23,648 nucleotides of DNA from a virus (IMGVR_UViG_3300017741_001868:1-23648), one strand, 5' to 3'; positions 2,251 to 23,648 are shown, numbered from the stretch's first letter. Numbers and translations are program-made. Notes: generated by a model not told the origin, from the sequence alone.

Positions 2251-4800
2251 ATGGGTAGATCTAGAGACATAGCAGAATTCTTAGGTAAAACTGAATCTGC
2301 TAACACAACTAATGTTGCTTTACTTAATTCAACTTCCAATGTGGGTTTAGATTCTGCACAGGTATCATCTATTGCAAATGCCGCAGGATTAACTGTCTAT
2401 GCCACTAAAGAAAATTTACCATCATCTGGACTTACTAGTGGCGACCAAGCATATGTAACCGACACAAGTAGATTGTATATCTCAAATGGATCAGGGTGGT
2501 ATAATGTTGCACTTATCAATGCCACTCCTAGTTTAACAATTGATCCAACAGGTGTTATAATACTTTCGAAAGAAGGTGCAGCAACTACAATTACATTAAC
2601 TGGAACTGACTCCGATAACGCTGTTGATGGATTAACGTTTAGTGTAGATTCTGATGGAAATTTTGGCGGTATGGGCACAATCAGTCAAGATTCAAGTGTG
2701 TTTACAATCACGCCACTAGGTGAAGACAGTGCAACTACGTCTACGTGTACTTTGACATTTAAAGCATCTGACGGCATATCATTTGGTACTGGAACAAGTG
2801 TATTAAATCTCACGTTTAAAGTAGATAATTCAAAACATACATCTATATTATTGAAAGCAGATGTTGCTGCTACAGATCAGCAAGTCGATGCTTCTACTAA
2901 TACACATACGATTACTCAAAGTGGCGTGAGGTCATCTGCACTTACACCTTACCATCCTGGAGGATATAGTTGGGGTTGGGCAGGAGATGGCACTGATTAT
3001 TTTACAATTGAGTCTCCTACATCGGCATTAAGTTTTGGTACAGGTGATTTTTGTTTAGAACTGTGGATATATCCTTTTGATGTAACGGCAAGCATATTAG
3101 CAGACATGAGACCTGCATCAACAAACGGTCCATACATTGGTGCTTTGGGTTTTAGTAGTGGTAATATATCTCTTGGGTTTAACGGACAATCTGGTTCACA
3201 ATTGGGTTTCATAACATCTGGTGCTCCAGTTTCAACACGTCAATGGAGTCATATAGTTTTAAATCGTGAATCTGGAACTTCAAACATTTTTGTAAATGGT
3301 GTTAGAGAATATACAACCACTACAGAATATAATTTTCTTGTGGGTAAATTTAGTTTATTCAAAAATGCTTATCCAGGTGGCGGTATCAATGATGGTACTG
3401 GTGGGTGGATACGAGATTATCGTGTAGTAAAGGGAAGTTCTGTATATGGAACTGGTACGACTCTCCCTGTACCTAATGAACCACTAACTGCAATCACAGG
3501 CACATCATTATTACTTTTTGGAAAAGCGAGAAGACATGATGCGGTTGGTGTTGAAAATGTTTCATATCAAAGTGGACATTTTGATAGGATTGGACCATAT
3601 AATCATAGTGAATACACCCCAGCAGAATATGGCGGTTCCGTATATTTTGATGGTAACGATAATCTTGATTTAGATTTTAATGCTATTGGAACCAGCGATT
3701 TTACGATTGAATGTTGGGTTTATATAGATGACAGTGTTGCTAACCAAGTGATATGTGATACTAGACCAACAAGCACTGATAATACAACTGGAATTAACAT
3801 TCAATTTAGATCTAATAATGTAGCATATGTTGGTAGTACAGGTGTTGCATATATAACAGGTTCTACAGTTATGGCAGATTATAGTTGGAATCACATTGCA
3901 GTAACTAGAAGTGGCAATACAATGACTCTTTGGGTTAATGGTAAATCTGACGGAACTGCTTCTCATTCTGTTAACCTTACATCTAGTGATCTGAAAATAG
4001 GCACAAATAGAACAGGGTCGAGTGTTTTCAATGGCAATATAACTGATTTCAGAATAGTTAAATCTGCAGTTTATACAGCAAACTTTGATCCACCAACTGC
4101 TCCATTAACAGCAATAACAAACACTGAAGTTTTAACTTGCACAAATAAGAATAATATTTGGGACACTGCTTCATCTACTTCAATAACAAAAACAGGTAAT
4201 GTGACTGCAAGCAATACAGAAAGAAAATTTGCGACATCTTCTGCAGTATATTTTGATGGCAATAGTGATCATTTAGATTTTCTCGCTGCCCACCAAAATG
4301 TATTCGCACTAGCAAGCAATGATTTTACTATTGAAATGTGGGTCAATTTCAGTATAGCATCCAGCGATACCTTATATCGTAGAATCTTTATGGCAGATGA
4401 TGGCGGCAACATCGCTAATAATTTCCAAATATTGATTGATGTTGGAGATGGAGGATACGGTCCAAATGGCGCAATTTTGGTATGGGCACAAGATGGATCA
4501 AATAATAATACTGGTATCTCATCACAAACTGCTATCAATGACAATAACTGGCACCACATTGCAGTAAGTCGGACATCGGGCACTGTACGTTTCTTTATCG
4601 ATGGTGTTAGGCAAGGAACAAACCTTACCAATTGGACGCACGGATTTACTGGTACACCAACACCTAGAATTGGTTCATGTAATGTCACAACTGAAGGTAA
4701 CTATGCGGGATATATTCAAGACTTTAGATTTACAAATGATTTTTCTAGATACACGTCTGATAATAGTTTTACACCACCAACTGCAGAATTTAAGGGATAA
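2251..4800 (+). CDS. Large LamG-domain adhesin / tail fibre, copy 1
   Basis: An 849-residue Thr/Ser/Asn-rich protein. Residues 1-90 form a conserved head module ending in YISNGSGWYNVALINATPSL. Residues 90-192 look Ig- or cadherin-like (TLTGTDSDNAVDGLTF, then LTFKASDGISFG). Three LamG/concanavalin-like repeats follow at about 240-410, 460-625 and 660-849. Each has an FDG or similar opening, a D-F-x-x-E-x-W-V strand, a W-x-H-I-x-x-x-R strand, a VNG or IDG turn and a closing I-x-D-F/Y-R strand. Such domains bind glycans, so a receptor-binding role on the virion is likely. A weak AAAGG site lies at 2238-2241. The next gene is a paralogue three bases downstream. There is no signal peptide, as expected for a virion protein. 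Confidence 0.88.
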   Translation: MGRSRDIAEFLGKTESANTTNVALLNSTSNVGLDSAQVSSIANAAGLTVYATKENLPSSGLTSGDQAYVTDTSRLYISNGSGWYNVALINATPSLTIDPTGVIILSKEGAATTITLTGTDSDNAVDGLTFSVDSDGNFGGMGTISQDSSVFTITPLGEDSATTSTCTLTFKASDGISFGTGTSVLNLTFKVDNSKHTSILLKADVAATDQQVDASTNTHTITQSGVRSSALTPYHPGGYSWGWAGDGTDYFTIESPTSALSFGTGDFCLELWIYPFDVTASILADMRPASTNGPYIGALGFSSGNISLGFNGQSGSQLGFITSGAPVSTRQWSHIVLNRESGTSNIFVNGVREYTTTTEYNFLVGKFSLFKNAYPGGGINDGTGGWIRDYRVVKGSSVYGTGTTLPVPNEPLTAITGTSLLLFGKARRHDAVGVENVSYQSGHFDRIGPYNHSEYTPAEYGGSVYFDGNDNLDLDFNAIGTSDFTIECWVYIDDSVANQVICDTRPTSTDNTTGINIQFRSNNVAYVGSTGVAYITGSTVMADYSWNHIAVTRSGNTMTLWVNGKSDGTASHSVNLTSSDLKIGTNRTGSSVFNGNITDFRIVKSAVYTANFDPPTAPLTAITNTEVLTCTNKNNIWDTASSTSITKTGNVTASNTERKFATSSAVYFDGNSDHLDFLAAHQNVFALASNDFTIEMWVNFSIASSDTLYRRIFMADDGGNIANNFQILIDVGDGGYGPNGAILVWAQDGSNNNTGISSQTAINDNNWHHIAVSRTSGTVRFFIDGVRQGTNLTNWTHGFTGTPTPRIGSCNVTTEGNYAGYIQDFRFTNDFSRYTSDNSFTPPTAEFKG

Positions 4801-4803
4801 TCA

Positions 4804-7308
4804 ATGGCAAAAAGTATTAATCGTTTATTAGCAGATGCAATCACCCCTACTGGAGACATTAACTCTTCTGCACTTGATAATGCTTCTGCTGGATTAGATT
4901 CTTCGCAGGTTACAACTATTGCATCTTCTTCTGGATTGACTGTTTATAGTGCTCTCGATTCCCTTCCTACATCTAATCTGACTGTTGGTGATCAAGCATA
5001 TGTTTCATCGAACAGTAGAATGTATATTTCTAATGGATCAGGATGGTATAATGTTGCACTGATTAATGCGACACCATCTCTAACAGTTAGTCCTAGTGGT
5101 TCAATCACACTTGCTACAGATGGAGTATCACCAACAGTTATAACATTATCTGCTACAGATTCTGATAATGCAGATGCGTCGTTATCATTAACTGTTGATT
5201 CTGGTGGAGACTTCTATAAAATTGCAACACTCAGTCAAGATTCATCTGTCTTTACTATTACACCAAGATCAGAAGATTCAGCAACGGCACTAGGATTTGA
5301 TGGCAGTGCTAGTCTTACATTCAAGGCATCAGATGGTATTAGTTTCGGTTCGCACAATACAACATTCAACTTAACGTTTAATATCCCAAATAGTGAATAT
5401 ACAAATTTCTTGGTGAAAGCAGATACAGCAGGAACAGATAACCAAGTTGATGCCTCTACTAATAATTATGCTATTACTGAAAACACAAGTGCAACAGCAT
5501 TAACATCAAGTGCATTTAGTCCATATCATCCTGGCGGTTACAGTACATATTTTGCGTCATCATCTGAGCATCTTATAACTAATTTGGCAACGTCTGGTAC
5601 TGCTGCTTGGACTATAGAATGGTGGGTATATCACACTGCAAACTCAGGCACTTCAAGTCAAAATAGAAATTTTGGTGCAGCAACCAACGATCCAATGTTT
5701 CTTAATACAAATTTGAATACTCCAACGCTTTATATTGGCGGTCAAGGACGAGTATCAGCATCAAAGACTATGGCAATCGGTCAATGGTATCATATTGCAC
5801 TTGTACGATCTGTCACTAGTAATACAATAAAAATGTACATTGATGGTGTTCTAGAAGGAACTTCTGCTGTACAAGCAGGCACCACACATGATATACCTGC
5901 AAAGACTAACTTTGGTGTTGGTTGTGATGCTAATTTTACTGCTTATGGAATGACAGGATATATAAGAGATTTTAGATATGTTATTGGAACTGAAGTTTAT
6001 ACGTCAGCATTTACACCTCCGGAAGCACCTCTAACAGCAATATCTGGTACTGACTTATTGCTTTGTAATCATGCTGCTCCAATAGACGCTTCTGGTAATT
6101 ATAATGCAGTAACTAGAGCAGGCACAAAAGCGGTAAGAGTTAGTCCATATACAATATCAGCGCAATATTTAAAGAGTACGCATGGCGGTTCTATACACCA
6201 CACTGGGGGAAGTTGGTTAAGCACAGGAACTATCACGTGGGATCGTACAAAGGATTGGACATTTGAGGGTTGGTGGAATGGCGCAAATGCTGCCACTGGT
6301 ACTTTTGCGGCACTGAATTCTGGTGGTGGTGTTGATGGTATCTACATAATGCACGGTGGTGGAGTTTATGTTAATGGTATTGAATGGGGTATTCCAGGAG
6401 GTCCAGCAAACTACTTTATACCGAATCATTGGAATCATTGGGCATTGGTTAGACATTCAGGTACTTATAAATTCTATGTAAATGGAATTTCTATGTGGAG
6501 TGAAACTAATGCAGGAGATGGCGGTGCTTCATCAGATCCTAAATTTGGAATAGGAGCAACAAGCGCAGGGGCAACAAAAGTTGCAGGCGATACATTTATG
6601 GCAGATATTAGATTTACAGAGGATGGAATATACACTGCAGATTTTATTCCCCCAACTGGACCAGTAGGAATTCACGCAGAAACAATTTTCAGCACATGTA
6701 CTAATCAACAAAGTGTATGGGATGTTGGTTCGTCAAAAATGTTGAATATTGTTGGAAACGCTGCAGCAAGTGATACTCAAAGAAAATTTACCACATCATC
6801 TGCAATTTCTTTTGATGGTAGTGGTGATTATATAGGTTGGGATGAAAATGGTTTCGTGGGAACATATGCTAGTGGATCGAACGATCTAACTTTCGAAACG
6901 TGGGTATATCCAAATGCCAATTCTAATTATCAGTGCGTGTTTAGTATGAACAGAGGTACTAGCACAGGATTTAATTTTGGTATTGATGGTGCGAGTAGAC
7001 CATTTTTATGGAAAGGTTCTTTCAGAATTCAAGCAGGTACAGTATCCAATACAACTTGGTCACATCTTGCGCTTGTAAGATATAACGGTGTATTTTCAAT
7101 ATATGTTAATGGAACTTCAGTTGGAGCAACTTGGGCAAATACGACTACATATACAGGACAAGACTTTGCATTAGGTGATACCGTTGCATCTGGGGGTGGA
7201 ACTTCAGGCGAATGGTTTAACGGATATTTGCAAGATGCTAGATATACAAAAGGTTTAGCGAGATACACCACAAACTTTACACCACAATCTTCAGAATTTG
7301 ATGGATAA
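4804..7308 (+). CDS. Large LamG-domain adhesin / tail fibre, copy 2
   Basis: An 834-residue paralogue of the preceding gene with the same architecture: head module (residues 1-93, again with YISNGSGWYNVALINATPSL), an Ig/cadherin-like part to about 195, then three LamG-like domains at about 243-420, 460-640 and 670-834. The head module and the HPGGYS hinge before the first LamG are strongly conserved between copies, while the LamG domains differ much more. That suggests a common attachment to the virion and different ligands. It begins three bases after the stop of copy 1. A glycan-binding receptor role is inferred from the domain type. Confidence 0.88.
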   Translation: MAKSINRLLADAITPTGDINSSALDNASAGLDSSQVTTIASSSGLTVYSALDSLPTSNLTVGDQAYVSSNSRMYISNGSGWYNVALINATPSLTVSPSGSITLATDGVSPTVITLSATDSDNADASLSLTVDSGGDFYKIATLSQDSSVFTITPRSEDSATALGFDGSASLTFKASDGISFGSHNTTFNLTFNIPNSEYTNFLVKADTAGTDNQVDASTNNYAITENTSATALTSSAFSPYHPGGYSTYFASSSEHLITNLATSGTAAWTIEWWVYHTANSGTSSQNRNFGAATNDPMFLNTNLNTPTLYIGGQGRVSASKTMAIGQWYHIALVRSVTSNTIKMYIDGVLEGTSAVQAGTTHDIPAKTNFGVGCDANFTAYGMTGYIRDFRYVIGTEVYTSAFTPPEAPLTAISGTDLLLCNHAAPIDASGNYNAVTRAGTKAVRVSPYTISAQYLKSTHGGSIHHTGGSWLSTGTITWDRTKDWTFEGWWNGANAATGTFAALNSGGGVDGIYIMHGGGVYVNGIEWGIPGGPANYFIPNHWNHWALVRHSGTYKFYVNGISMWSETNAGDGGASSDPKFGIGATSAGATKVAGDTFMADIRFTEDGIYTADFIPPTGPVGIHAETIFSTCTNQQSVWDVGSSKMLNIVGNAAASDTQRKFTTSSAISFDGSGDYIGWDENGFVGTYASGSNDLTFETWVYPNANSNYQCVFSMNRGTSTGFNFGIDGASRPFLWKGSFRIQAGTVSNTTWSHLALVRYNGVFSIYVNGTSVGATWANTTTYTGQDFALGDTVASGGGTSGEWFNGYLQDARYTKGLARYTTNFTPQSSEFDG

Positions 7309-7855: not shown

Positions 7856-7895
7856 ATCACCTATAAAGAAATCATTGAAAAGAAGGAACATTCGG

Positions 7896-10112
7896 ATGCA
7901 AAATCAGTTTGCAGACACGAGAGAGTTTTTGTCCCAAACCAAGTTTTATGACTCGTATTCACGTTTCAAAGAAGAAGAAGGAACGTATGAGACTTGGGAT
8001 GAAGCAGTAGATCGTGTGCTATCAATGCACGAAGAAAATTATTCAGAGGCATTAGAAAAATTACAACCGTTCATTGAAGAAGCAAGAACTGCATACAAAG
8101 AACAACGTGTTCTTGGTGCACAACGTGCACTACAATTTGGCGGTGAACAATTAAAGAAACACCAGATGCGTATGTACAATTGTACATCATCCTATGCAGA
8201 TCGTCCTGCATTCTTTGGTGAATTCTTCTATATTTTATTATGTGGTGCAGGTGCAGGGTTTTCTGTGCAAGAACATCACGTCGGAAAATTACCACAAATT
8301 CAACAACGTACAAAACAAGCAAAGGGTTTTGTCGTAGAAGATTCAATTGAAGGTTGGGCATCAGCACTTGACGTGTTGATGTCATCTTATTTTGTTGGTG
8401 ATAGTAAATATCCAGACTATGAAGGTCGTCGTGTATTCTTTGACTTATCAAACATTCGTCCGAAGGGTGCAAAGATCTCTGGTGGATTTAAAGCACCTGG
8501 ACCAGAGGGTCTTCGCAAATCACTTGATAAGATTGAGCATATGCTTCAAGCATTAGTTATGGATGCAAAAGAACCACAACCGCTTCGTCCTATCGCTGTA
8601 TATGATATCTGTATGCATGCTGCTGATGCTGTACTATCGGGTGGCGTGCGTCGTTCAGCAACTATCTGTTTGTTCTCTCCTGAAGATGATGAGATGATGA
8701 ATGCAAAAACTGGTAACTGGTTTATGGATAACGCTCAACGCGGTCGTTCGAACAATTCAGCAGTTATCGTACGTGATGAAGCAACACCTGAGATGTTTGC
8801 AAAAATTATGGAATCAGTTAAGTCGTTTGGGGAACCAGGATTTTACTTTACAACATCAAAAGAGCATACAACTAACCCTTGTGTTGAAATTGGTATGTTC
8901 CCGCAATATGAAGGTGAAACAGGTTGGCAAGGTTGTAACCTGACTGAAATTAACGGTGGTATGTGTAACACAGAAGAAGACTTCTATAAAGCATGTCGTG
9001 CAGGTGCTATTCTTGGCACAATGCAAGCAGGTTATACAGACTTCAAATTTTTATCAGACACATCTAAGAAAATCTTTGATCGTGAAGCATTGCTTGGCGT
9101 ATCAATTACAGGTTGGATGAATAATCCGGATATCCTTTTCGATACTAAAATTCTGAAAAAAGGGGCAAACATTGTTAAGAAAGTCAATAAAGAGATTGCT
9201 GCCATTATCGGCATTAATCCTGCTGCTCGTACTACTTGTGTTAAACCGAGTGGAAATGCATCCGTATTGCTCCAAACTGCTTCAGGAATCCATGCTGAAC
9301 ATTCGTCAATGTACATCCGTAACATTCAGATGAATAAAGAATCTGAAATTACAAATGCAATCATCAAAGCAAATCCGCATATGGTTGAAGAATCTGTATG
9401 GTCTGCTAATGGTACAGATGTTGTGATTTCATTTCCTATTGTTCCAAACAGAGGTTCTATGTTCAAGGATGAATTGCTTGGCGTGAAACATCTTGAACTC
9501 GTAAAGAAAGCACAAAAGAACTGGGTCGTTGAAGGCACAAACGAAGAACTATGTGCGGATGAAGGTATCCGTCACAATGTATCAAACACAATTATCGTTG
9601 ATGACTGGGATGATGTAGAAAAGTATGTTTACGAGAATCGTTACTCGTTCTCAGGTATTTCATTCCTCGCACCAACAGGTGATAAAGACTACAACCAAGC
9701 ACCAAATACTCAGGTCATTGATTCTGAGACTATGGTTGCAAAATATCAAGACGGTGCAGTATTTGCCTCTGGTATGGTTGTTGATGCAATGAAGTGTTTC
9801 GACAATTTATGGAATGCTTGCTCAACAGCGCAAGGTATGGGTGAAGATTTATCACTCGAGTCTAGCACAAACAGTGCAAAGAAAGACTGGGTTCGTAGAT
9901 TCGAACGGTTTGCTGAAAACTATCTTGATGGTGATATGAAGAAAACTGAATATTGCCTGAAAGACGCATATTTACTACATAAGTGGAATAAGATTCAAAA
10001 GAACTTATCACCAATCAATTGGAAAACAGATCTAACTGAGAAAGTTTTCACTGACGTTGATACTCTTGGTGCAGCAGCATGTGCTGGTGGTGCTTGTGAT
10101 ATCGATTTCTAG
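7896..10112 (+). CDS. nrdJ: Class II (adenosylcobalamin-dependent) ribonucleoside-triphosphate reductase, monomeric
   Basis: The enzyme makes deoxyribonucleotides from ribonucleoside triphosphates using coenzyme B12. From the ATG at 7896 it has 738 residues, close to the 739 known for the Lactobacillus leichmannii enzyme. The expected cysteines are visible: MYNCTS (C96) and GCNLTEI (C347) as the substrate-reducing pair, NPCVEI (C329) as the thiyl site with E331, and C729/C734 in the C-terminal CAGGAC swinging-arm pair. The ATG at 7896 is preferred over an upstream in-frame TTG at 7875 because AGAAGGA lies at the right distance (7881-7887). It has its own promoter. B12 must come from the host or the environment, since no B12 genes are seen. 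Marine phages often carry this class. Confidence 0.95.
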   Translation: MQNQFADTREFLSQTKFYDSYSRFKEEEGTYETWDEAVDRVLSMHEENYSEALEKLQPFIEEARTAYKEQRVLGAQRALQFGGEQLKKHQMRMYNCTSSYADRPAFFGEFFYILLCGAGAGFSVQEHHVGKLPQIQQRTKQAKGFVVEDSIEGWASALDVLMSSYFVGDSKYPDYEGRRVFFDLSNIRPKGAKISGGFKAPGPEGLRKSLDKIEHMLQALVMDAKEPQPLRPIAVYDICMHAADAVLSGGVRRSATICLFSPEDDEMMNAKTGNWFMDNAQRGRSNNSAVIVRDEATPEMFAKIMESVKSFGEPGFYFTTSKEHTTNPCVEIGMFPQYEGETGWQGCNLTEINGGMCNTEEDFYKACRAGAILGTMQAGYTDFKFLSDTSKKIFDREALLGVSITGWMNNPDILFDTKILKKGANIVKKVNKEIAAIIGINPAARTTCVKPSGNASVLLQTASGIHAEHSSMYIRNIQMNKESEITNAIIKANPHMVEESVWSANGTDVVISFPIVPNRGSMFKDELLGVKHLELVKKAQKNWVVEGTNEELCADEGIRHNVSNTIIVDDWDDVEKYVYENRYSFSGISFLAPTGDKDYNQAPNTQVIDSETMVAKYQDGAVFASGMVVDAMKCFDNLWNACSTAQGMGEDLSLESSTNSAKKDWVRRFERFAENYLDGDMKKTEYCLKDAYLLHKWNKIQKNLSPINWKTDLTEKVFTDVDTLGAAACAGGACDIDF

Positions 10113-10299: not shown

Positions 10300-11484
10300 A
10301 TGTACTGTAGATTAAACAGCAACGGCATGACTATCAACCCTGACGGTAATATATCCGTTTGTTGCTCTAACAATGGAAATTGGGACATAGGACATATATC
10401 TGAAATAGATGATCTCAATAAGCATTGGAAAAATCATCCTGACATGATTAAACTCAGAAATGATGATCCTCAGAAAATGATGGAAGCATGCGGAAGTTGT
10501 TTAAGAAAAACTGAAACTTTTCAAACTCGTTGGCATTTGGTGAATGAGGAACCTCGTTACCTGAAAATTAGAAATGACAATGAAATCAGATATCTAGAAT
10601 TCACGACTTCTAATATATGTAATCAAACTTGCGCTTCTTGCTCAAGTTATTTCAGTTCAAAGTGGAGGCACCTCGAAGAAGAATTAATTGATTTAGGATT
10701 TTTGCAAAATGCTAAATCAAAAAATGACATAGGGTTTAATTCTTACAATCATCCAATATCAAGAATAGAAGATAAAGATATCTCTAAGATAATGAAACTG
10801 CTGCCCCAACTTGATAAGATAGATATTAAGGGTGGTGAACCGTTCGCTGATAAAAATAACTTCTTTATCTTAGATGAGTTGTTGAAAACTAATCCTAATT
10901 GCGTAATAAGTATCTCAACCAACTTTTCTAGCGTTCCGCAAAAACATATAGATCTATTTAAAAAGTCTAGTGCAAAACCTACGATTAATGTTTCGATGGA
11001 TGGGGTTTATGAAGTGTATGAATACATTAGATCAACCCCTTTCCAAAAGACTGTAGACAATATCAAATATTGGTACAAAGAAACTGGACATCAAGTCAAT
11101 GTACAAACTTTTTATTCAATGTATAATATGCTAAACTTAAAAGAAGTTTTAGAGTTCTTTAGTAATAATTTGCGCGAAGAAGTAAAATTTGTGGTATTTC
11201 ATAAATGGATTAATTCTCCATTTTACATATCTCCACAAAGGGTATTATTTCAAAGGGAATTAGATGAACTGAAAGAGATAGTCATGAGTCCAAATATTAC
11301 GAAATATTTCTCTGAAAGTGAAGGCAAATTTGTAAATCGCAATCTTTACAATTTTACAAAAATCGGTAATTATGAAAGCACTATAAAATGGAGAAAAGAA
11401 TTCGTTCAATACACTAAATGGTTGAACTTAACAAGAGGGATTGATATATATGAACATATCCCTCTGCTGAAGGGAATAAAATAG
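10300..11484 (+). CDS. Radical SAM enzyme with N-terminal twitch/SPASM-like cysteine region
   Basis: A 394-residue enzyme. The radical SAM cluster motif is C107-x3-C111-x2-C114 (SNICNQTCASC), with the GGEP motif at 178-181 (DIKGGEPF) that contacts S-adenosylmethionine. Before it, residues 1-70 hold INPDGNISVCCSNNGNWDIG and ACGSCLRK (C21, C22, C64, C67), a layout normally found as a C-terminal twitch or SPASM auxiliary-cluster domain. Here it is at the N-terminus, matching a family called N-terminal twitch radical SAM protein that occurs in marine phages. The substrate is unknown; relatives with SPASM or twitch domains modify peptides, proteins or sugars. Only a weak ribosome site precedes the ATG, so coupling to the DUF1289 gene is likely. 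Confidence 0.88.
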   Translation: MYCRLNSNGMTINPDGNISVCCSNNGNWDIGHISEIDDLNKHWKNHPDMIKLRNDDPQKMMEACGSCLRKTETFQTRWHLVNEEPRYLKIRNDNEIRYLEFTTSNICNQTCASCSSYFSSKWRHLEEELIDLGFLQNAKSKNDIGFNSYNHPISRIEDKDISKIMKLLPQLDKIDIKGGEPFADKNNFFILDELLKTNPNCVISISTNFSSVPQKHIDLFKKSSAKPTINVSMDGVYEVYEYIRSTPFQKTVDNIKYWYKETGHQVNVQTFYSMYNMLNLKEVLEFFSNNLREEVKFVVFHKWINSPFYISPQRVLFQRELDELKEIVMSPNITKYFSESEGKFVNRNLYNFTKIGNYESTIKWRKEFVQYTKWLNLTRGIDIYEHIPLLKGIK

Positions 11485-17655: not shown

Positions 17656-17889
17656 ATGTCAACATCTTTTATGGAAAATTTAAGACATCGCGAGTTGTTC
17701 GAAGAGTTGACTCGAGGATTTCAGATGGATAAAGGATCCTGTATAGATACTGTAGATTGGTTTATTGAAAACGGTCACAGATCGAATTCACTTCGTAATG
17801 GTTTTTCAGATGCGATGGAAGTCGCAATAAAGATAAAGGATTACGCAAATGAATGCGCAGAAGCAACTAGAACCTGGATCGAAGTATGA
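17656..17889 (+). CDS. Small helical protein of unknown function
   Basis: A 77-residue protein (MSTSFMENLRHRELFEELTR, ending KIKDYANECAEATRTWIEV), mostly charged helix with no membrane segment. It begins directly after the deoxyribonucleotidase stop and overlaps the EF-hand gene by 41 bases, so all three are on one transcript. FENGHRSNSLRNGF-type wording is the only distinctive part (here WFIENGHRSNSLRNGF). No family is recognised. Confidence 0.7.
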   Translation: MSTSFMENLRHRELFEELTRGFQMDKGSCIDTVDWFIENGHRSNSLRNGFSDAMEVAIKIKDYANECAEATRTWIEV

Positions 17890-18193
17890 TCATTTCGATA
17901 AAGATGGCGATGGCGTCATTACTGATGAAGAGTTTGCATTAGAAAGAGAAATGATGCGTGCTGATAATGAAGATAAGAAAGAAGATCAAATCCGTCGTAT
18001 GGCGTGGTTTGCTTTATGGGGATTATTAGTATATCCCGTCGGCATCGTCGTTGCTGATATTATCGGATATGATACCACAGGACAATTATTGGCAGATATT
18101 GCACCAACATATTTTGTTGCAATCTCAGCATTAGTTGGTGCTTTCTTTGGTGCACAAGCATACCAAAAGTCAAGGACAAACCCAAAAAAGTAA
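17849..18193 (+). CDS. EF-hand protein with two membrane segments
   Basis: A 114-residue protein. Residues 17-28 (DKDGDGVITDEE) are a textbook calcium-binding EF-hand loop with D17, D19, D21, T25 as the weaker ligand and E28. A charged helix (29-50) leads to two membrane segments, about 52-72 and 86-103, and a short basic tail (AYQKSRTNPKK). The end, FFGAQAYQKSR, matches the FWFGSRAIEKSR end of the holin-like protein at 7321. A membrane protein gated or anchored by calcium is the simplest reading, perhaps holin-like, but this is inference. AAAGGA upstream of the ATG supports the start, 41 bases inside the previous gene. Confidence 0.82.
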   Translation: MNAQKQLEPGSKYDHFDKDGDGVITDEEFALEREMMRADNEDKKEDQIRRMAWFALWGLLVYPVGIVVADIIGYDTTGQLLADIAPTYFVAISALVGAFFGAQAYQKSRTNPKK

Positions 18194-18203
18194 ACGATGT
18201 GAA

Positions 18204-18992
18204 ATGAAAAGATTGATATATCAGGTGTACACTGGTGCACCTTCTAAATTGTATGATTGGTGTACAGATTCCGTGATGAAATATTGTGAACGTCACGGAA
18301 TCGACCACCGAATTCAAAAACACCCTATCATGAAAATCAAACCTGATGTCTTCGTGACTAATCGAAGCAAAGAGTCTTATGAGAAATATGGTGGGTTCCT
18401 CCCTATTTACGAAAAAGAAAATGCGTTTGATCATTGGGATACATACGATCAAATCTGTATTGTCGATGCAGACATTTGGATTCGACCAGATGCTCCAAAC
18501 ATTTTTGAAGAACTGAATGACGATACTGAATTCGCAGGTGTGCTTGAACGTGACCTTCCACTGCTCGATTGGTATAAACAAAAACTTGTAAATTACACTC
18601 GGATGCAATACCAACCGCTCAATAAGATTGATTGGCAATTCGGTAAAAGTGGTGGTCGTTTTTATAACATGGGTCTTATGCTCATGGATAAAAAAATAGT
18701 GAAATATCTTCGTGGGGATAGCGGTAAAGAATTTATTCAGCGTGCTGAGTTTAAAGACTTTGTTGATGGACAGGGAGCATGGAAGTGGTCGACTGATCAA
18801 ACTTTGTTGAACTATTGGGTTCGAAAAGAGAATATGGTTGAGCAACCACTCTCATGGAAATATAATACATTGTACACTGCTATAGATAATAAGAATTTAA
18901 AGGACGCATATTTTGTGCACTTTTTCTTGAAAGACAAACTTCCCAATAAAGGTGAGAATGTCGAAGAACTTATGAGGATAGTGGATGTTTAA
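18204..18992 (+). CDS. GT8-like glycosyltransferase, copy 1
   Basis: A 262-residue GT-A type enzyme. IVDADIWIRPDAP at about 86-98 holds the D-x-D (D88, D90) that binds the metal and nucleotide sugar. Later landmarks are FYNMGLMLMD (the acceptor-side loop) and ATKWSTDQTLL-like text, here AWKWSTDQTLLNYW, and YFVHFFLKDKLP. These are typical of GT8-type transferases that move a sugar from a nucleotide donor. The start at ATG 18204 has only a weak ribosome site; an upstream frame start lies in the EF-hand gene. It opens the sugar cassette and is a paralogue of the gene at 22418. Confidence 0.83.
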   Translation: MKRLIYQVYTGAPSKLYDWCTDSVMKYCERHGIDHRIQKHPIMKIKPDVFVTNRSKESYEKYGGFLPIYEKENAFDHWDTYDQICIVDADIWIRPDAPNIFEELNDDTEFAGVLERDLPLLDWYKQKLVNYTRMQYQPLNKIDWQFGKSGGRFYNMGLMLMDKKIVKYLRGDSGKEFIQRAEFKDFVDGQGAWKWSTDQTLLNYWVRKENMVEQPLSWKYNTLYTAIDNKNLKDAYFVHFFLKDKLPNKGENVEELMRIVDV

Positions 18993-19620
18993 TTTTCAAT
19001 CACCACCTGGAGATATCGAAAGAAGAGATTATGCGGATGAGAAAAAAGCATGGGAGTTTTCGAAATCTCAACTTGTAAAGACTAGACATGCTCTTGATAT
19101 TGGTGGGCATATGGGTGCAATGTCTCGTATGTTTGCTGAGCACTTCACACAAGTCTCTACATTTGAACCATCGTTTCATTATTGGACAGAATTAAATACT
19201 CGAGATCTTCCTAACGTTCGCGTGTATCCATATGGATTAGGTGATGAAGAAAAAACCGAGACCATGTACATAATGGAAAAAAAGACTGGCGGTTCCACTA
19301 TTGTCCCTCATAAGGCAAGAGAAAAGTGGATGAAATTAGAAAGCACGAAAACAAGAACGATAGACATCAAGACGCTTGATAGTTTTGAATTCATCAATAT
19401 CGACTTTATAAAAATCGATGTAGAGAGTTATGAGTATTTTGTTTTGAATGGAGCACTCGAAACTTTAACTAATAACTCTCCAGTGATTATGGTTGAGTTC
19501 TTAACGAAATATGAGCATCCAACAAAACCTTCCAAACATTCACACAGACTTCTAGATAGTTTGGGGTATAAACATATCAAAAGATTTGGTTATGATAATA
19601 TTTACATTAGGAGAACATAA
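18985..19620 (+). CDS. FkbM-family methyltransferase
   Basis: A 211-residue methyltransferase. LDIGGHMGAMSRMF at 37-50 is the glycine-rich S-adenosylmethionine loop; TFEP supplies the next acidic contact. TRTIDIKTLDSF and FIKIDVESYEYFVLNGA are the FkbM hallmarks (IKIDVEG-type motif). FkbM enzymes methylate sugar hydroxyls, so this one probably caps or marks a sugar made by its neighbours. It overlaps the GT8-like gene by eight bases and the next methyltransferase by one (TAATG). Confidence 0.88.
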   Translation: MFNFQSPPGDIERRDYADEKKAWEFSKSQLVKTRHALDIGGHMGAMSRMFAEHFTQVSTFEPSFHYWTELNTRDLPNVRVYPYGLGDEEKTETMYIMEKKTGGSTIVPHKAREKWMKLESTKTRTIDIKTLDSFEFINIDFIKIDVESYEYFVLNGALETLTNNSPVIMVEFLTKYEHPTKPSKHSHRLLDSLGYKHIKRFGYDNIYIRRT

Positions 19621-20249
19621 TGTCTGAGTTGGGTGATTTATTCAATTTATTTCAAACTGATAAAACATCAAAGCATGGTTATGAAGAAGTTTATGAGAAA
19701 TCATTTAAAAAACGCAGAGACCAAAAAATTAATATATTAGAAATTGGTGTTTACCAAGGTTCTAGTACGATGGCACTCCATAAGTATTTTCCAAATGCTA
19801 ACTTATATGGTGCTGATGTTTTTGAACGGTTTACTATGGAAACGATCAAACCTTATAAATTTGATCGTTGCAAGTTTGTTAAAGCAGACTCTACGAGTGA
19901 AAACTTTGGTGAAAAAATTAAAGAAGCATTCGGTGAGGATATCAAGTTTGATTACATCATAGATGATGGTAAACACACCCCACTAGCAAATATGCTAACC
20001 TTTACACAAGCGAGTCCTTTTTTAGCAGATGGTGGTGAATATTTCATCGAAGATGTCTGGCCACTTCATATCATGTATGGTGATGAACTAGACCATTATT
20101 GGTTGCGTGCAAAACCTGAGGTCTATAATTCAGCAGTGAATAATGAATTCTTGACTACTCTTGAGATGTCAGATCTTAAAATCGTAAAGTTTGATCTTCG
20201 TAAAAAATCCGGAGAACCTGATTCTTATATTATAAGGTTGAAAAAGTGA
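19620..20249 (+). CDS. Class I methyltransferase (Methyltransf_24 / MycE-like)
   Basis: A 209-residue methyltransferase of a different family from its neighbour. It begins LGDLFNLFQTDKTSKHGYEE, typical of sugar O-methyltransferases such as MycE; ILEIGVYQGSST (39-50) is the binding loop; YGADVF and DYIIDDGKHTP are the acidic and metal-site motifs. The second half includes EYFIEDVWPLH. The target is likely a sugar hydroxyl of the same glycan. It begins in the previous stop and overlaps the next gene by four bases. Confidence 0.82.
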   Translation: MSELGDLFNLFQTDKTSKHGYEEVYEKSFKKRRDQKINILEIGVYQGSSTMALHKYFPNANLYGADVFERFTMETIKPYKFDRCKFVKADSTSENFGEKIKEAFGEDIKFDYIIDDGKHTPLANMLTFTQASPFLADGGEYFIEDVWPLHIMYGDELDHYWLRAKPEVYNSAVNNEFLTTLEMSDLKIVKFDLRKKSGEPDSYIIRLKK

Positions 20250-20920
20250 AAGCGCAAATTGTTTATGTTAAAGGGCACGAAGGTTCCGAAAAACAAGCAA
20301 ACGCTGCTTACAAATCAGCGTGGAAGAATGGATTAAAACCTGAACTTGTAGAAGGATTTACAAAAAACACAATTCATGTTCAGCGTAATATAATTCAAGA
20401 GAGCAGACTCCATAATTTTAAAAAAGAAAATGCTAATAGGTTTTTAACAAAATGTGCATGCGCTCATAACCATATCAAATTTTGGGAAAGGGTCGTCAAA
20501 CAAAACGAAACAATGATATTTCTCGAACATGATGCAGTAGTCACTATGCCATGGGCAGACTATGAGTTCGATGAATATCTTATTTTAAACGGTGAGTTTG
20601 TATTTCGACCACCAAATAAACTTGCTCTTCAACAATACAAAAATTTTGAATGGTCTGGGTTTGGAGTCACGGATCTTCCTGACGATTATCCTTTAAAATA
20701 TTACAGGGAAAATTCTTGGAAAGATTCTGATATGGCACCAGGAACAGGTGCTTATGCATTAACACCAAAGGGAGCAAAGAGGTTGCTTTCCGCTGTAGAT
20801 GTATATGGTTTCGATCAAAGTGACTTTATGATTAACTCATACAATGTTAATATTCAAGTCGTACTCCCATCACCTGTTAAATTCGCTGAAGTTAATCTTA
20901 GCACGTCATACGGAACATGA
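20246..20920 (+). CDS. GT25-like glycosyltransferase, copy 1
   Basis: A 224-residue enzyme of the LPS glycosyltransferase family 25 type. CACAHNHIKFWERVV matches the S/A-C-x-x-S/A-H-x-x-x-W lead-in, and MIFLEHDAVV (90-99) is the family's E-x-D site, here E94-H95-D96 with His in place of the usual middle Asp. PGTGAYALTPKGAKRLL is the conserved late motif. The start is GTG at 20246, overlapping the methyltransferase stop, with AAGG about nine bases upstream. A paralogue lies at 23149. Confidence 0.8.
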   Translation: MKAQIVYVKGHEGSEKQANAAYKSAWKNGLKPELVEGFTKNTIHVQRNIIQESRLHNFKKENANRFLTKCACAHNHIKFWERVVKQNETMIFLEHDAVVTMPWADYEFDEYLILNGEFVFRPPNKLALQQYKNFEWSGFGVTDLPDDYPLKYYRENSWKDSDMAPGTGAYALTPKGAKRLLSAVDVYGFDQSDFMINSYNVNIQVVLPSPVKFAEVNLSTSYGT

Positions 20921-21630
20921 TTACATTAGATGTTTTACAACGCCCAAAACCTTTGGGTGATCAATTAGATGCAGTTTTTCTTGGATGCATGATAAGTGTC
21001 ATCAACAGAGAACCTGTTAATATCTACTCTCCAGATTCTCCTCTACTAGATTATTTTAAGAATTTTATCGGTTGGGGTTATGTTCATGTAAATCGACCCA
21101 TCAGTGGCACAGTTATAGAATACAGTAACACTAAAGATCAAAAATTTTATAGCGATTGCTCAAAACAATTTGAAAAGATTCCACCTGCATTAAATATTCC
21201 AAAAACAAAAATACCATTGCCTGAGAAATATATCACCACGCAATGGGACGCAAAACAAAAATATCGAAAACTTGAACCGCATCGTATCGGTAAAATCCAG
21301 CATTACTATCAGGATCTTGGATATGAATTAATTGATGTCGGAAACGGAAAAATGCCTTTGGATGATACTATAGCAATAATGGCAGGTGCTGATTATCATA
21401 TTGGCGCAGACTCGGGCATGATGCATATTGCTAAGTTTTTGATGTCAATAGAAAAGATTCATGTTTACATTAACATCAGAAACAGGTATAATGATGTCAG
21501 ATTTCCGGATGACTGGAACGTTGCTTTTATGGCAAGGGAAATATTCCGGAGAGGTGCAAAAATGAATTATTGTGAAACTCCATCACAAGGTGAAATAGAA
21601 TATTTTGCGAGGACAGAGTTGTGGGATTAG
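20917..21630 (+). CDS. GT9-like (heptosyltransferase-type) glycosyltransferase, copy 1
   Basis: A 237-residue GT-B-like protein. LGDQLDAVFLGCMI near the N-terminus resembles the heptosyltransferase G-loop; KYITTQWDAKQKYRKL is the inter-domain strand; ADYHIGADSGMMHIAKF is the C-terminal donor-site motif with the D-S-G-x-x-H-I pattern. It is shorter than a typical heptosyltransferase (about 320-350 residues) but has both halves. It overlaps its neighbours by four and ten bases. Confidence 0.75.
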   Translation: MITLDVLQRPKPLGDQLDAVFLGCMISVINREPVNIYSPDSPLLDYFKNFIGWGYVHVNRPISGTVIEYSNTKDQKFYSDCSKQFEKIPPALNIPKTKIPLPEKYITTQWDAKQKYRKLEPHRIGKIQHYYQDLGYELIDVGNGKMPLDDTIAIMAGADYHIGADSGMMHIAKFLMSIEKIHVYINIRNRYNDVRFPDDWNVAFMAREIFRRGAKMNYCETPSQGEIEYFARTELWD

Positions 21631-22421
21631 GTGATGATGTTATATTTCTAGGAAAAGCAGAGGAAATATACAAAGAGACTGGAAAAAAGATTACACCTCT
21701 ATATGGTTCTGGGTGGAGTCCTTTATATAAAAACGTTGAGTTCCTAGTTAAAGATGGCGGATTAACAGTCAATGCGCGAGACACCTCCCGCAATTCTGAC
21801 CGTCATGTAGATTATTATGTTAAAGGAAAAGAGAAAACCATATTAGGTGAAAAAATGGTATGGAATGATTTCAAACCAACACCATTTAGAATCAGGTTAA
21901 GTAAAGAAGAAAAGTCGTGGGCAAAAAATGCCATGAGAGAACTTAGAATCCCAGAGAGTTTTTTCTTGATAAATCCCGATTACAAATCTACATTTTTTTC
22001 AGAGAATAAAAACTGGGGATTTAAAAAGTGGCAAGAACTTACTGATAAACTTTCAAAGCATATTCCAATTGTGAGAATTCACCCTGGAAATAATTATAGA
22101 GAACCTGATCTAAAAAATGCGCTGAACACTCAAATCACTGATATCCGAAGATCAGTTTCTGTTATGGCGCATGCGAAGGGTGGTGCGTCTTATGATGGAT
22201 TGCTTATGCATATCTTTGCTGGTTTTGAGATACCAATGACAGTGATTCAGGGTGGGTTAATTATGCCTCGTCAAATGTCTTATGATATCCATAAACACAT
22301 AGGATATGATCACCCTCAAACACCATGCGGAGCAACATACAGTTGCCCACATTGCCTCGAAGCAAACGAATACATAAGTGTTGATATGGTGTATGAAAAG
22401 TGTTTGGAGATGCTAAAATGA
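21621..22421 (+). CDS. GT9-like glycosyltransferase, copy 2
   Basis: A 266-residue GT-B-like protein. It opens with the G-loop GLGDDVIFLGKAEE; FFLINPDYKSTFFSENKNWG and KWQELTDKL are the inter-domain strand and helix; GGASYDGLLMHIFAGFEIP is the donor-site region, with GGLI where the preceding protein has a D-S-G. The C-terminus has a three-cysteine patch (TPCGATYSCPHCLE), also known from some heptosyltransferase-like proteins. The start is GTG at 21621, ten bases inside the previous gene. Whether it uses heptose or another sugar cannot be told. Confidence 0.75.
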   Translation: MGLGDDVIFLGKAEEIYKETGKKITPLYGSGWSPLYKNVEFLVKDGGLTVNARDTSRNSDRHVDYYVKGKEKTILGEKMVWNDFKPTPFRIRLSKEEKSWAKNAMRELRIPESFFLINPDYKSTFFSENKNWGFKKWQELTDKLSKHIPIVRIHPGNNYREPDLKNALNTQITDIRRSVSVMAHAKGGASYDGLLMHIFAGFEIPMTVIQGGLIMPRQMSYDIHKHIGYDHPQTPCGATYSCPHCLEANEYISVDMVYEKCLEMLK

Positions 22422-23152
22422 AAACGTTGGTTGTACAGGTTCAAGTGGGGAACACTGCTGCATATGTTTACGACAGCATTCCTGATGCAAAAGAAAGTGC
22501 AAAATTGTTTCGTGATATTTGTATCCCTAGTGTTAAACGTTATGCAGAAAAACACGATTACGATTACAAAATGATTACCGAGTATCCTGAAGATTTTGAC
22601 ATCACATATTTCAATAGAAATACAAAGTCAAAAGATCATGATTATTCGGGTGGTGGTAAAAACAAATGCTCAACTTTGATTCGATATTTAAATATGGGGA
22701 TAGAAGGGTATGACAGGATTGTTTCTTTAGATTGTGATGTTTGGATACCTGATCACGCTTCACCAGTTCCTGAGGTCAAAGGTCACGCTGGTTGTGTTGA
22801 TCTAGGGAAACCATGGGCAGAGTTTAGAAGTAAATATAAACTTCCCCATGATAAATTTATCAACGGTGGAGTTCAAATCGTTGATGGACCAACAGGTTCT
22901 AAAATATGTAAATTTGTTCAAAAGAAAATTATAAACAGAGACCTACCAATGATTCATACTGATCAAGCATATATGAATGAATGGCGTTCTCTGAATCCTG
23001 ATAAATCTTTTGTTCTTGATGAGAGTTGGAATTATATGACTGGTGTATATGTGAGAACAGATGATTACTCTAATGTGAATTTTGTCCATTTTGCTGGCGG
23101 TAATGGTAGAGGGATATTCCTCGATCAAGTGAAAAGAGGAGTGGTGAAATGA
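22418..23152 (+). CDS. GT8-like glycosyltransferase, copy 2
   Basis: A 244-residue GT-A type enzyme, a paralogue of the gene at 18204. RIVSLDCDVWIPDH at about 100-113 holds D105-C106-D107, the metal-binding D-x-D. KFINGGVQIVDGP is the acceptor loop, HTDQAYMNEW the late acidic motif, and NFVHFAGGNGRG the final His-Gly site. The ATG at 22418 overlaps the previous stop (ATGA), and a TTG upstream in the same frame is not needed. It is followed by a coupled GT25-like gene. Confidence 0.83.
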   Translation: MKTLVVQVQVGNTAAYVYDSIPDAKESAKLFRDICIPSVKRYAEKHDYDYKMITEYPEDFDITYFNRNTKSKDHDYSGGGKNKCSTLIRYLNMGIEGYDRIVSLDCDVWIPDHASPVPEVKGHAGCVDLGKPWAEFRSKYKLPHDKFINGGVQIVDGPTGSKICKFVQKKIINRDLPMIHTDQAYMNEWRSLNPDKSFVLDESWNYMTGVYVRTDDYSNVNFVHFAGGNGRGIFLDQVKRGVVK

Positions 23153-23648
23153 AAGCATTTGCTATCGTAGTTAAAGGTGTAGAAACATCCGAAACAGGTT
23201 TTAAAAATTTAGAGAGATCTTCTAAGAAAGTCAAGAACGATTTTAAAGTAGAAAGGTTTGAAGCGACAACACCTGAGTTTGCAAACGTATCTTTGGCAGG
23301 TAATGGTATCAAGTGGACATATCCTTGGGAAGGTGAGAAAATTGATATTGCTTCGGGGATGACTTTGAAATCATACCCAACAGCGTATAAAGAACGTCGT
23401 ATTGCTTGTTTCATGAGTCACTTTAGATTGTGGCATGAATGTATCAAACGTGATGAACCCATTCTTGTACTCGAACATGATTCTTTGTTCTTACAGAAAT
23501 TAAATTATGATTATATCCTTGAATCTAAATTCGACATCATTGGTATCAATAACCCCTTAATGGCGACACGTAAAGCAAAACTGTTTCATGATATGATAAA
23601 AGAACACCCTCAAGAGATTCAGCAGGTTCCGGATATTGATGAGTTCAA
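23149..23648 (+). CDS. GT25-like glycosyltransferase, copy 2 (cut by window edge)
   Basis: An open frame from ATG 23149 to the window end, 166 residues visible. RRIACFMSHFRLWHECI is the lead-in motif and PILVLEHDSLF (104-114) the active-site strand, again with Glu-His-Asp (109-111) as in the first copy. The C-terminal motif lies beyond the window. It overlaps the GT8-like gene by four bases (ATGA), and AGAGGAG at 23135-23141 provides a ribosome site. The cassette therefore continues past the window. Confidence 0.78.
   Translation, partial: MKAFAIVVKGVETSETGFKNLERSSKKVKNDFKVERFEATTPEFANVSLAGNGIKWTYPWEGEKIDIASGMTLKSYPTAYKERRIACFMSHFRLWHECIKRDEPILVLEHDSLFLQKLNYDYILESKFDIIGINNPLMATRKAKLFHDMIKEHPQEIQQVPDIDEF

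Follow-up and report, generated by a model that had tools for sequence, protein, structure and literature searches.

The eight-gene cassette at positions 18204-23648 of a 23,648-base virus DNA (IMGVR_UViG_3300017741_001868; the whole stretch is called the window below) is one allele of a hypervariable island that occupies a fixed site in uncultured marine T4-like phages. The middle of this island changes by wholesale replacement, not by drift. Its enzymes most likely extend an existing cytoplasmic acceptor, and the phages probably produce a variety of sugar coats, on their hosts or on themselves.

The window is DNA of a marine T4-like phage of an uncultured group. A contig of 48,864 bases (IMGVR_UViG_3300017758_000014) spans it entirely at 99.94% DNA identity and extends 919 bases beyond it. 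The phage origin assumed in a preliminary description of the window is borne out by the terminase of the parent contig, which has 74.5% identity to that of phage C48C1 and 47.5% to those of Synechococcus T4-like phages (T4-like cyanophages), and the neighbouring genes in the window are T4-like (PhoH, exonucleases, a DNA-binding protein, tail fibres and LamG adhesins). The LamG adhesins mentioned there are present as two consecutive proteins of ~840 aa (window 2251-7308; Laminin_G_3 1.8e-49 and 9.9e-30), each with several Laminin_G_3 domains and with PHROG matches in common; they are possibly duplicated adhesins.

A class II (B12-type) ribonucleotide reductase (RNR; window 7875-10112, with the Pfam RNR-II insertion domain), found here in a T4-like phage and nearest to that of Rhizobium phage RHph_I1_18 (61%), hints at a B12-using host. 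A radical SAM/SPASM protein (window 10300-11484) lies between the reductase and replication genes and has no homologue at the equivalent place in L008 and L015. No tRNAs were found in three kin contigs searched for host inference, and the matches in genome bins are for the most part phage contigs that share their bins with mixed phyla, which is not decisive for the host. The first and seventh cassette genes have no match among annotated phage records. Homologues of the first (46-57% identity) occur at L211:368-1183 and L212:1-354, on contigs that resemble Bacteroidota chromosomes by their DnaA-like and GalU-like neighbours (an assessment from N-termini alone); these are a possible gene source or host hint.

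All eight ORFs were found on the + strand, in the order previously given (GT8-like, FkbM methyltransferase, MycE-like methyltransferase, GT25, GT9-like, GT9-like, GT8-like, GT25) and coupled by short overlaps. A 10-base gap separates the upstream gene c0 from GT8a, and the later junctions overlap by 8, 1, 4, 4, 10, 4 and 4 bases if the seventh gene starts at ATG 22418. The last ORF is truncated at the window end and whole on the 48.9-kb contig, where a third GT25 (219 aa; Pfam 7.8e-11, 42.7 bits) comes next. A minus-strand ORF overlying GT8a (18060-18845) was considered a shadow ORF. The late-promoter motif TATAAATA has 2 matches where 2.34 are expected, which is uninformative, and sigma-70-like sites occur at chance level. 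The cassette genes are under purifying selection, with dN/dS of 0.05-0.31 where dS was computable (dS being near saturation); the value for GT8a is 0.05 relative to L007.

Features of the cassette and its left boundary in the window (protein-family handles in brackets)
Feature	Position	Strand	Evidence and remarks
c0, 114-aa EF-hand, two-TM protein	17849..18193	+	EF-hand_1 2.6e-4; island left boundary
GT8a (c5), GT8-like glycosyltransferase	18204..18992	+	motifs; no Pfam match; usual first island gene
FkbM-type methyltransferase (c76)	18985..19620	+	PF05050 1.3e-13; phrog_8156 3.6e-27
MycE-like sugar O-methyltransferase domain (c17)	19620..20249	+	PDB 3ssm 1.2e-11, 8ia9 1.6e-9; PF13578 1.5e-5
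GT25a glycosyltransferase (c18)	20246..20920	+	PF01755 1.2e-9
GT9a, heptosyltransferase-like (c34)	20917..21630	+	PF01075 1.5e-4, sub-cut-off; GD, SGM motifs
GT9b, heptosyltransferase-fold protein (c35)	21621..22421	+	AlphaFold model; no Pfam match
GT8b, GT8-like glycosyltransferase (c36)	22418..23152	+	motifs; PF01501 0.081; alternative GTG start 22400
GT25b (c1), partial in window	23149..23648	+	PF01755 5.1e-10; 231 aa at L006:14946-15641

Families, motifs and a predicted fold sustain the description of the cassette as a set of glycan-building genes. The FkbM methyltransferase exceeds its Pfam gathering score (51.9 bits versus 22.7), as do GT25a and GT25b (38.8 and 40 bits versus 24); the GT25b profile matches GT25 structures 8xlz/8xc8 at 3e-5 to 6e-5, and GT25 collagen galactosyltransferases give weak matches in the profile search. 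The second methyltransferase reaches PF13578 exactly at the cut-off. It resembles the MycE catalytic domain over residues 5-150, but at 209 aa, aligned to chain residues 185-329 of 419, it lacks the full-length MycE architecture (~400 aa), and because the match is partial it is named MycE-like and not MycE. The GT8 proteins fall short of the PF01501 gathering score (GT8b has 12.9 bits versus 24.3) and retain the family motifs, which are DxD (D88/D90), D198-Q199 and H239, invariant in 11 homologues of GT8a, and D111xD113, D188-Q189 and H230, kept in 5 homologues of GT8b; both are therefore named GT8-like only. GT9a, at 21.6 bits versus 22, narrowly misses the PF01075 gathering score, and its motifs G14-D15 and S166-G-M are invariant in 6 homologues. 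GT9b has a predicted GT-B heptosyltransferase fold: its AlphaFold model (pLDDT 76.8) matches WaaC, TibC and GT9 structures (best E 1.9e-5, probability 1.0; TM 0.37-0.57, normalised by query). Profile searches of the PDB with GT8a, GT9a, GT9b and GT8b returned nothing useful.

The preliminary description also spoke of paired families, which is apt for the class labels and not for recent duplicates. GT8a and GT8b have 23.5% identity (E 0.001), GT25a and GT25b align over 30 residues only (E 2e-5), and between GT9a and GT9b no sequence similarity was detected; recent tandem duplication is ruled out as the source of pairs so divergent.

The cassette had been treated as an isolated set; it is instead one version of an island with conserved ends. 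Islands were gathered with the left neighbour c0 and a right-end gene, c2, as search keys, giving 48 loci with both in order, of which 38 were distinct in protein content; the distinct loci and the parent contig, with near-duplicates removed, make up the 37 islands compared. They measure 1.5-12.3 kb and hold 2-17 genes (median 10), with overlaps at 73% of the junctions within them. The layout is c0, usually GT8a, a variable middle, and then a conserved block that begins with GT25b and continues with the third GT25 (GT25c, c3), a GT8-like gene (c4) and the DUF115-like c2. Family counts over the 37 islands are 37 for c0, 36 for GT25b, 34 each for GT25c and c4, and 29 for GT8a, the next commonest family reaching 16; as search keys, c0 and c2 occur in every island by construction, so that only GT25b, GT25c, c4 and GT8a are independent evidence. 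The exact right-end order is kept in 28 of 36 islands. Four more islands with the same layout (L204, L207, L208 and L209) were fetched independently through GT8a in bacterial genome bins. The site follows PhoH, exonuclease, deoxyribonucleotidase and c0, and the other flank is a 139-aa protein; VrlC and gp14 were not located. In L028, L030, L050 and L066, c0 and c2/c4-type genes lie on opposite strands, as rearranged versions of the locus.

The boundary gene c0 is probably a neighbour of the island and not a member of the sugar pathway. Two TM segments are scored in 36 of 39 homologues, and the gene occurs also in phages without the island, where a gene of 400-800 aa often lies downstream in place of the island; it has an invariant DIAPTYF motif and at least 561 viral relatives. 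At the opposite end, outside the window, c2 gave no significant match in a PDB fold search; its best matches in BFVD are unnamed, with DUF115/MptE-like proteins at 0.007-0.01, and a relative in phage DSL-LC06 (26%, 8e-7) is annotated as an alpha-2,3/8-sialyltransferase.

Between the conserved ends the gene content varies widely. Of 77 protein families, 35 are confined to a single island and only six occur in more than 16. The middle genes of the window are found again in 1-6 islands (c17 and c18 in 6; c34, c35 and c36 in 3), and c76, as a 35%-identity cluster, in the window allele only. The preliminary description had named close relatives that lack the cassette as a refuting case; relatives instead retain the ends and swap the middle. 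L126 and L128 are 91.7% identical through the end of c0, then unalignable for ~6.6 kb, then 89.5% identical over 3 kb. The alignment of L119 with L120 breaks exactly at the end of c0 and resumes at the start of GT25b, and that of L120 with L121 breaks at the end of c0 or at the next gene and likewise resumes at GT25b. Close relatives (~90% DNA identity on both flanks) can thus have no middle DNA in common, with breaks at gene ends. At 60-70% identity of the conserved genes, the variable genes of two islands have a mean Jaccard index of 0.10; above 90% it is 0.67, the latter value being inflated by three near-identical islands. Gene content follows relatedness of the right end only loosely (r 0.30) and that of c0 scarcely at all (r 0.08). 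The sharp edges of the alignments suggest that alleles are exchanged through the conserved ends.

Among the products of the various alleles are FkbM and other methyltransferases, epimerases/dehydratases, nucleotidyltransferases, a HAD-nucleotidyltransferase fusion, UDP-galactopyranose mutase, sulfotransferases and an asparagine-synthase-like protein, and in L016 a heptose kinase/adenylyltransferase-like gene lies near GT8a. The preliminary description had reported no genes for nucleotide-sugar synthesis, and the window allele indeed has none; since sister islands carry such enzymes, the lack of genes for making donors belongs to this allele and not to the system. It had also proposed to look past position 23648 for sugar-synthesis and flippase genes: the added DNA completes GT25b and supplies GT25c, the former genes appear in sister islands, and a flippase appears in none. 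By hydropathy, each of 414 island proteins has at most one TM segment, which indicates that neither flippase nor polymerase is encoded.

Two further kinds of protein were seen in these islands. A RuBisCO-superfamily protein (PF00016 2.3e-22; PDB RuBisCO 1.1e-23; the KPK and FIKEDE lysine/acidic motif retained) lies beside a sugar nucleotidyltransferase in five islands (L172:5057-6136, L155, L161, L163 and L167) and occurs also at L210:10541-11617; perhaps it serves an unusual step in sugar building. A literature search on phage RuBisCO returned no matching paper. At L208:10739-11858, two short ORFs have N-termini that resemble, by eye only, the halves of a split transketolase; HAD and nucleotidyltransferase genes are present in the same island.

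The enzymes of the island look soluble and are accompanied by neither flippase nor polymerase; they are therefore expected to act stepwise in the cytoplasm on a pre-existing acceptor. GT9, GT8, GT25 and FkbM are enzyme classes of stepwise lipooligosaccharide (LOS) core assembly. This speaks for host LOS and for superinfection exclusion, the latter having been suggested for pelagimyophages (PMC7029224); the WaaC fold of GT9b, the heptose gene of L016 and the nucleotide-sugar enzymes of sister islands were counted on the same side. The probability that the acceptor is the host LOS core, with the island as a fixed-site allelic locus for glycan assembly, is put at roughly 0.47. For the acceptor, the donors, the order of the pathway and the benefit of exclusion we infer the following scheme. 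The conserved ends (GT8a on the left; GT25b, GT25c, the GT8-like and the DUF115-like protein on the right) would make an invariant part of the oligosaccharide, and the exchangeable middle (FkbM, MycE-like, GT25a, GT9a, GT9b and GT8b in the window) would set lineage-specific sugars and O-methyl caps. The enzymes would work stepwise on host lipid A-core ahead of its export by the host, the window allele drawing its donors from the host. The new surface sugars would block adsorption by rival phages and keep progeny from sticking to debris, and exchange of the middle, with the conserved ends kept, would generate new alleles. It counts against this reading that a lytic phage is short of time to recoat a cell.

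A serious competitor, to which about a third of the weight might be given, is that the enzymes glycosylate and methylate structural proteins of the virion, such as the LamG adhesins, so that a lineage-specific coat alters host binding or shields the particle. One of the best fold matches of GT9b, TibC, transfers heptose to proteins, and collagen galactosyltransferases belong to GT25, so that proteins are almost as plausible an acceptor as LOS. Stepwise cytoplasmic building is compatible with the absence of a flippase here too, the LamG adhesins lie 11-16 kb upstream of the island, and related cassettes in L205 and L206 directly follow other, possibly structural, genes to which PHROGs gave no identity. 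Against this, no peptide-priming enzyme was recognised, several unrelated genes (RNR, exonucleases, PhoH) intervene between island and fibre genes, and no hydroxylase/GT25 fusion was found in close kin, the matches there to phrog_61 covering chiefly the GT25 part. Phage-encoded glycosylation of virions is known from mycobacteriophages, according to work cited in PMC12619734.

Two other explanations are very improbable. Glycosyltransferases might decorate modified DNA bases against restriction, as in T4-like phages, and PMC12619734 also cites phage glycosyltransferases able to place diverse glycans on DNA (Pyle 2024). Thymidylate-synthase/hydroxymethylase family genes were, however, not found in the kin G001, G002, C48C1 and the 141-kb G011, which makes DNA modification unlikely; one was found in only 2 of 18 related records (most of them fragments), once with an internal stop, and sulfotransferases, UDP-galactopyranose mutase and heptosyltransferase folds fit a surface glycan better. 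The genes might equally be host LPS genes acquired by chance and belonging to no single pathway, as the many families seen once could indicate, but purifying selection, intact motifs, the tight overlaps and an order of end genes that is fixed across divergent phages speak against loose cargo of this kind.

There is an even chance that the island is the phage counterpart of a bacterial O-antigen locus, in which conserved end enzymes make a common scaffold and its outer part is switched by whole-allele replacement between phages, the resulting "serotypes" being sustained by frequency-dependent competition. Some alleles would even draw on unusual sugar chemistry, as where the RuBisCO-superfamily protein adjoins a sugar nucleotidyltransferase. 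If so, marine T4-like phages maintain a collection of interchangeable loci for surface sugars, and the role of phage-borne LPS genes becomes testable, pairs of alleles with near-identical flanks such as L126/L128 being a natural experiment. The conserved right-end enzymes would then point to a single common acceptor that could be identified by biochemistry.

Several known systems invite comparison. The island shares allelic replacement between conserved end genes with bacterial O-antigen and capsule loci; unlike Wzx/Wzy O-antigen loci, it is borne by phages and lacks flippase and polymerase. Cyanophage P-SSM2 has an LPS-type cluster, likewise a large LPS-like gene set in a marine T4-like phage. 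C48C1 (OQ984149), the nearest complete genome, has in one stretch homologues of c2, the GT9-like c56, the radical SAM c57 and the glycosyltransferase c72, but no homologue of GT8a, GT25b or GT25c, and its sugar genes are interrupted by others. The host recognition cluster (HRC) of pelagimyophages and cyanomyophages is also a hypervariable island rich in glycosyltransferases in marine T4-like phages, for which changes to host LPS and prevention of co-infection have been proposed (Zaragoza-Solas 2020, PMC7029224). It is ~45 kb long, is bounded by VrlC and gp14 and includes the tail fibres (PMC7029224), whereas the present island is far smaller (1.5-12 kb), consists almost entirely of sugar genes, has conserved end enzymes and follows PhoH, exonuclease, deoxyribonucleotidase and c0. 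Divergence of the HRC was inferred to be gradual (PMC7029224), and replacement in the present island is abrupt. For this uncultured group, the combination of a fixed site with conserved enzymes at the ends and the swapping of whole alleles is undescribed in the literature searched, which covered few subscription journals. LPS-type islands are already known in phages (cyanophages, pelagimyophages), and what looks new is the design of conserved ends around a swapped middle.
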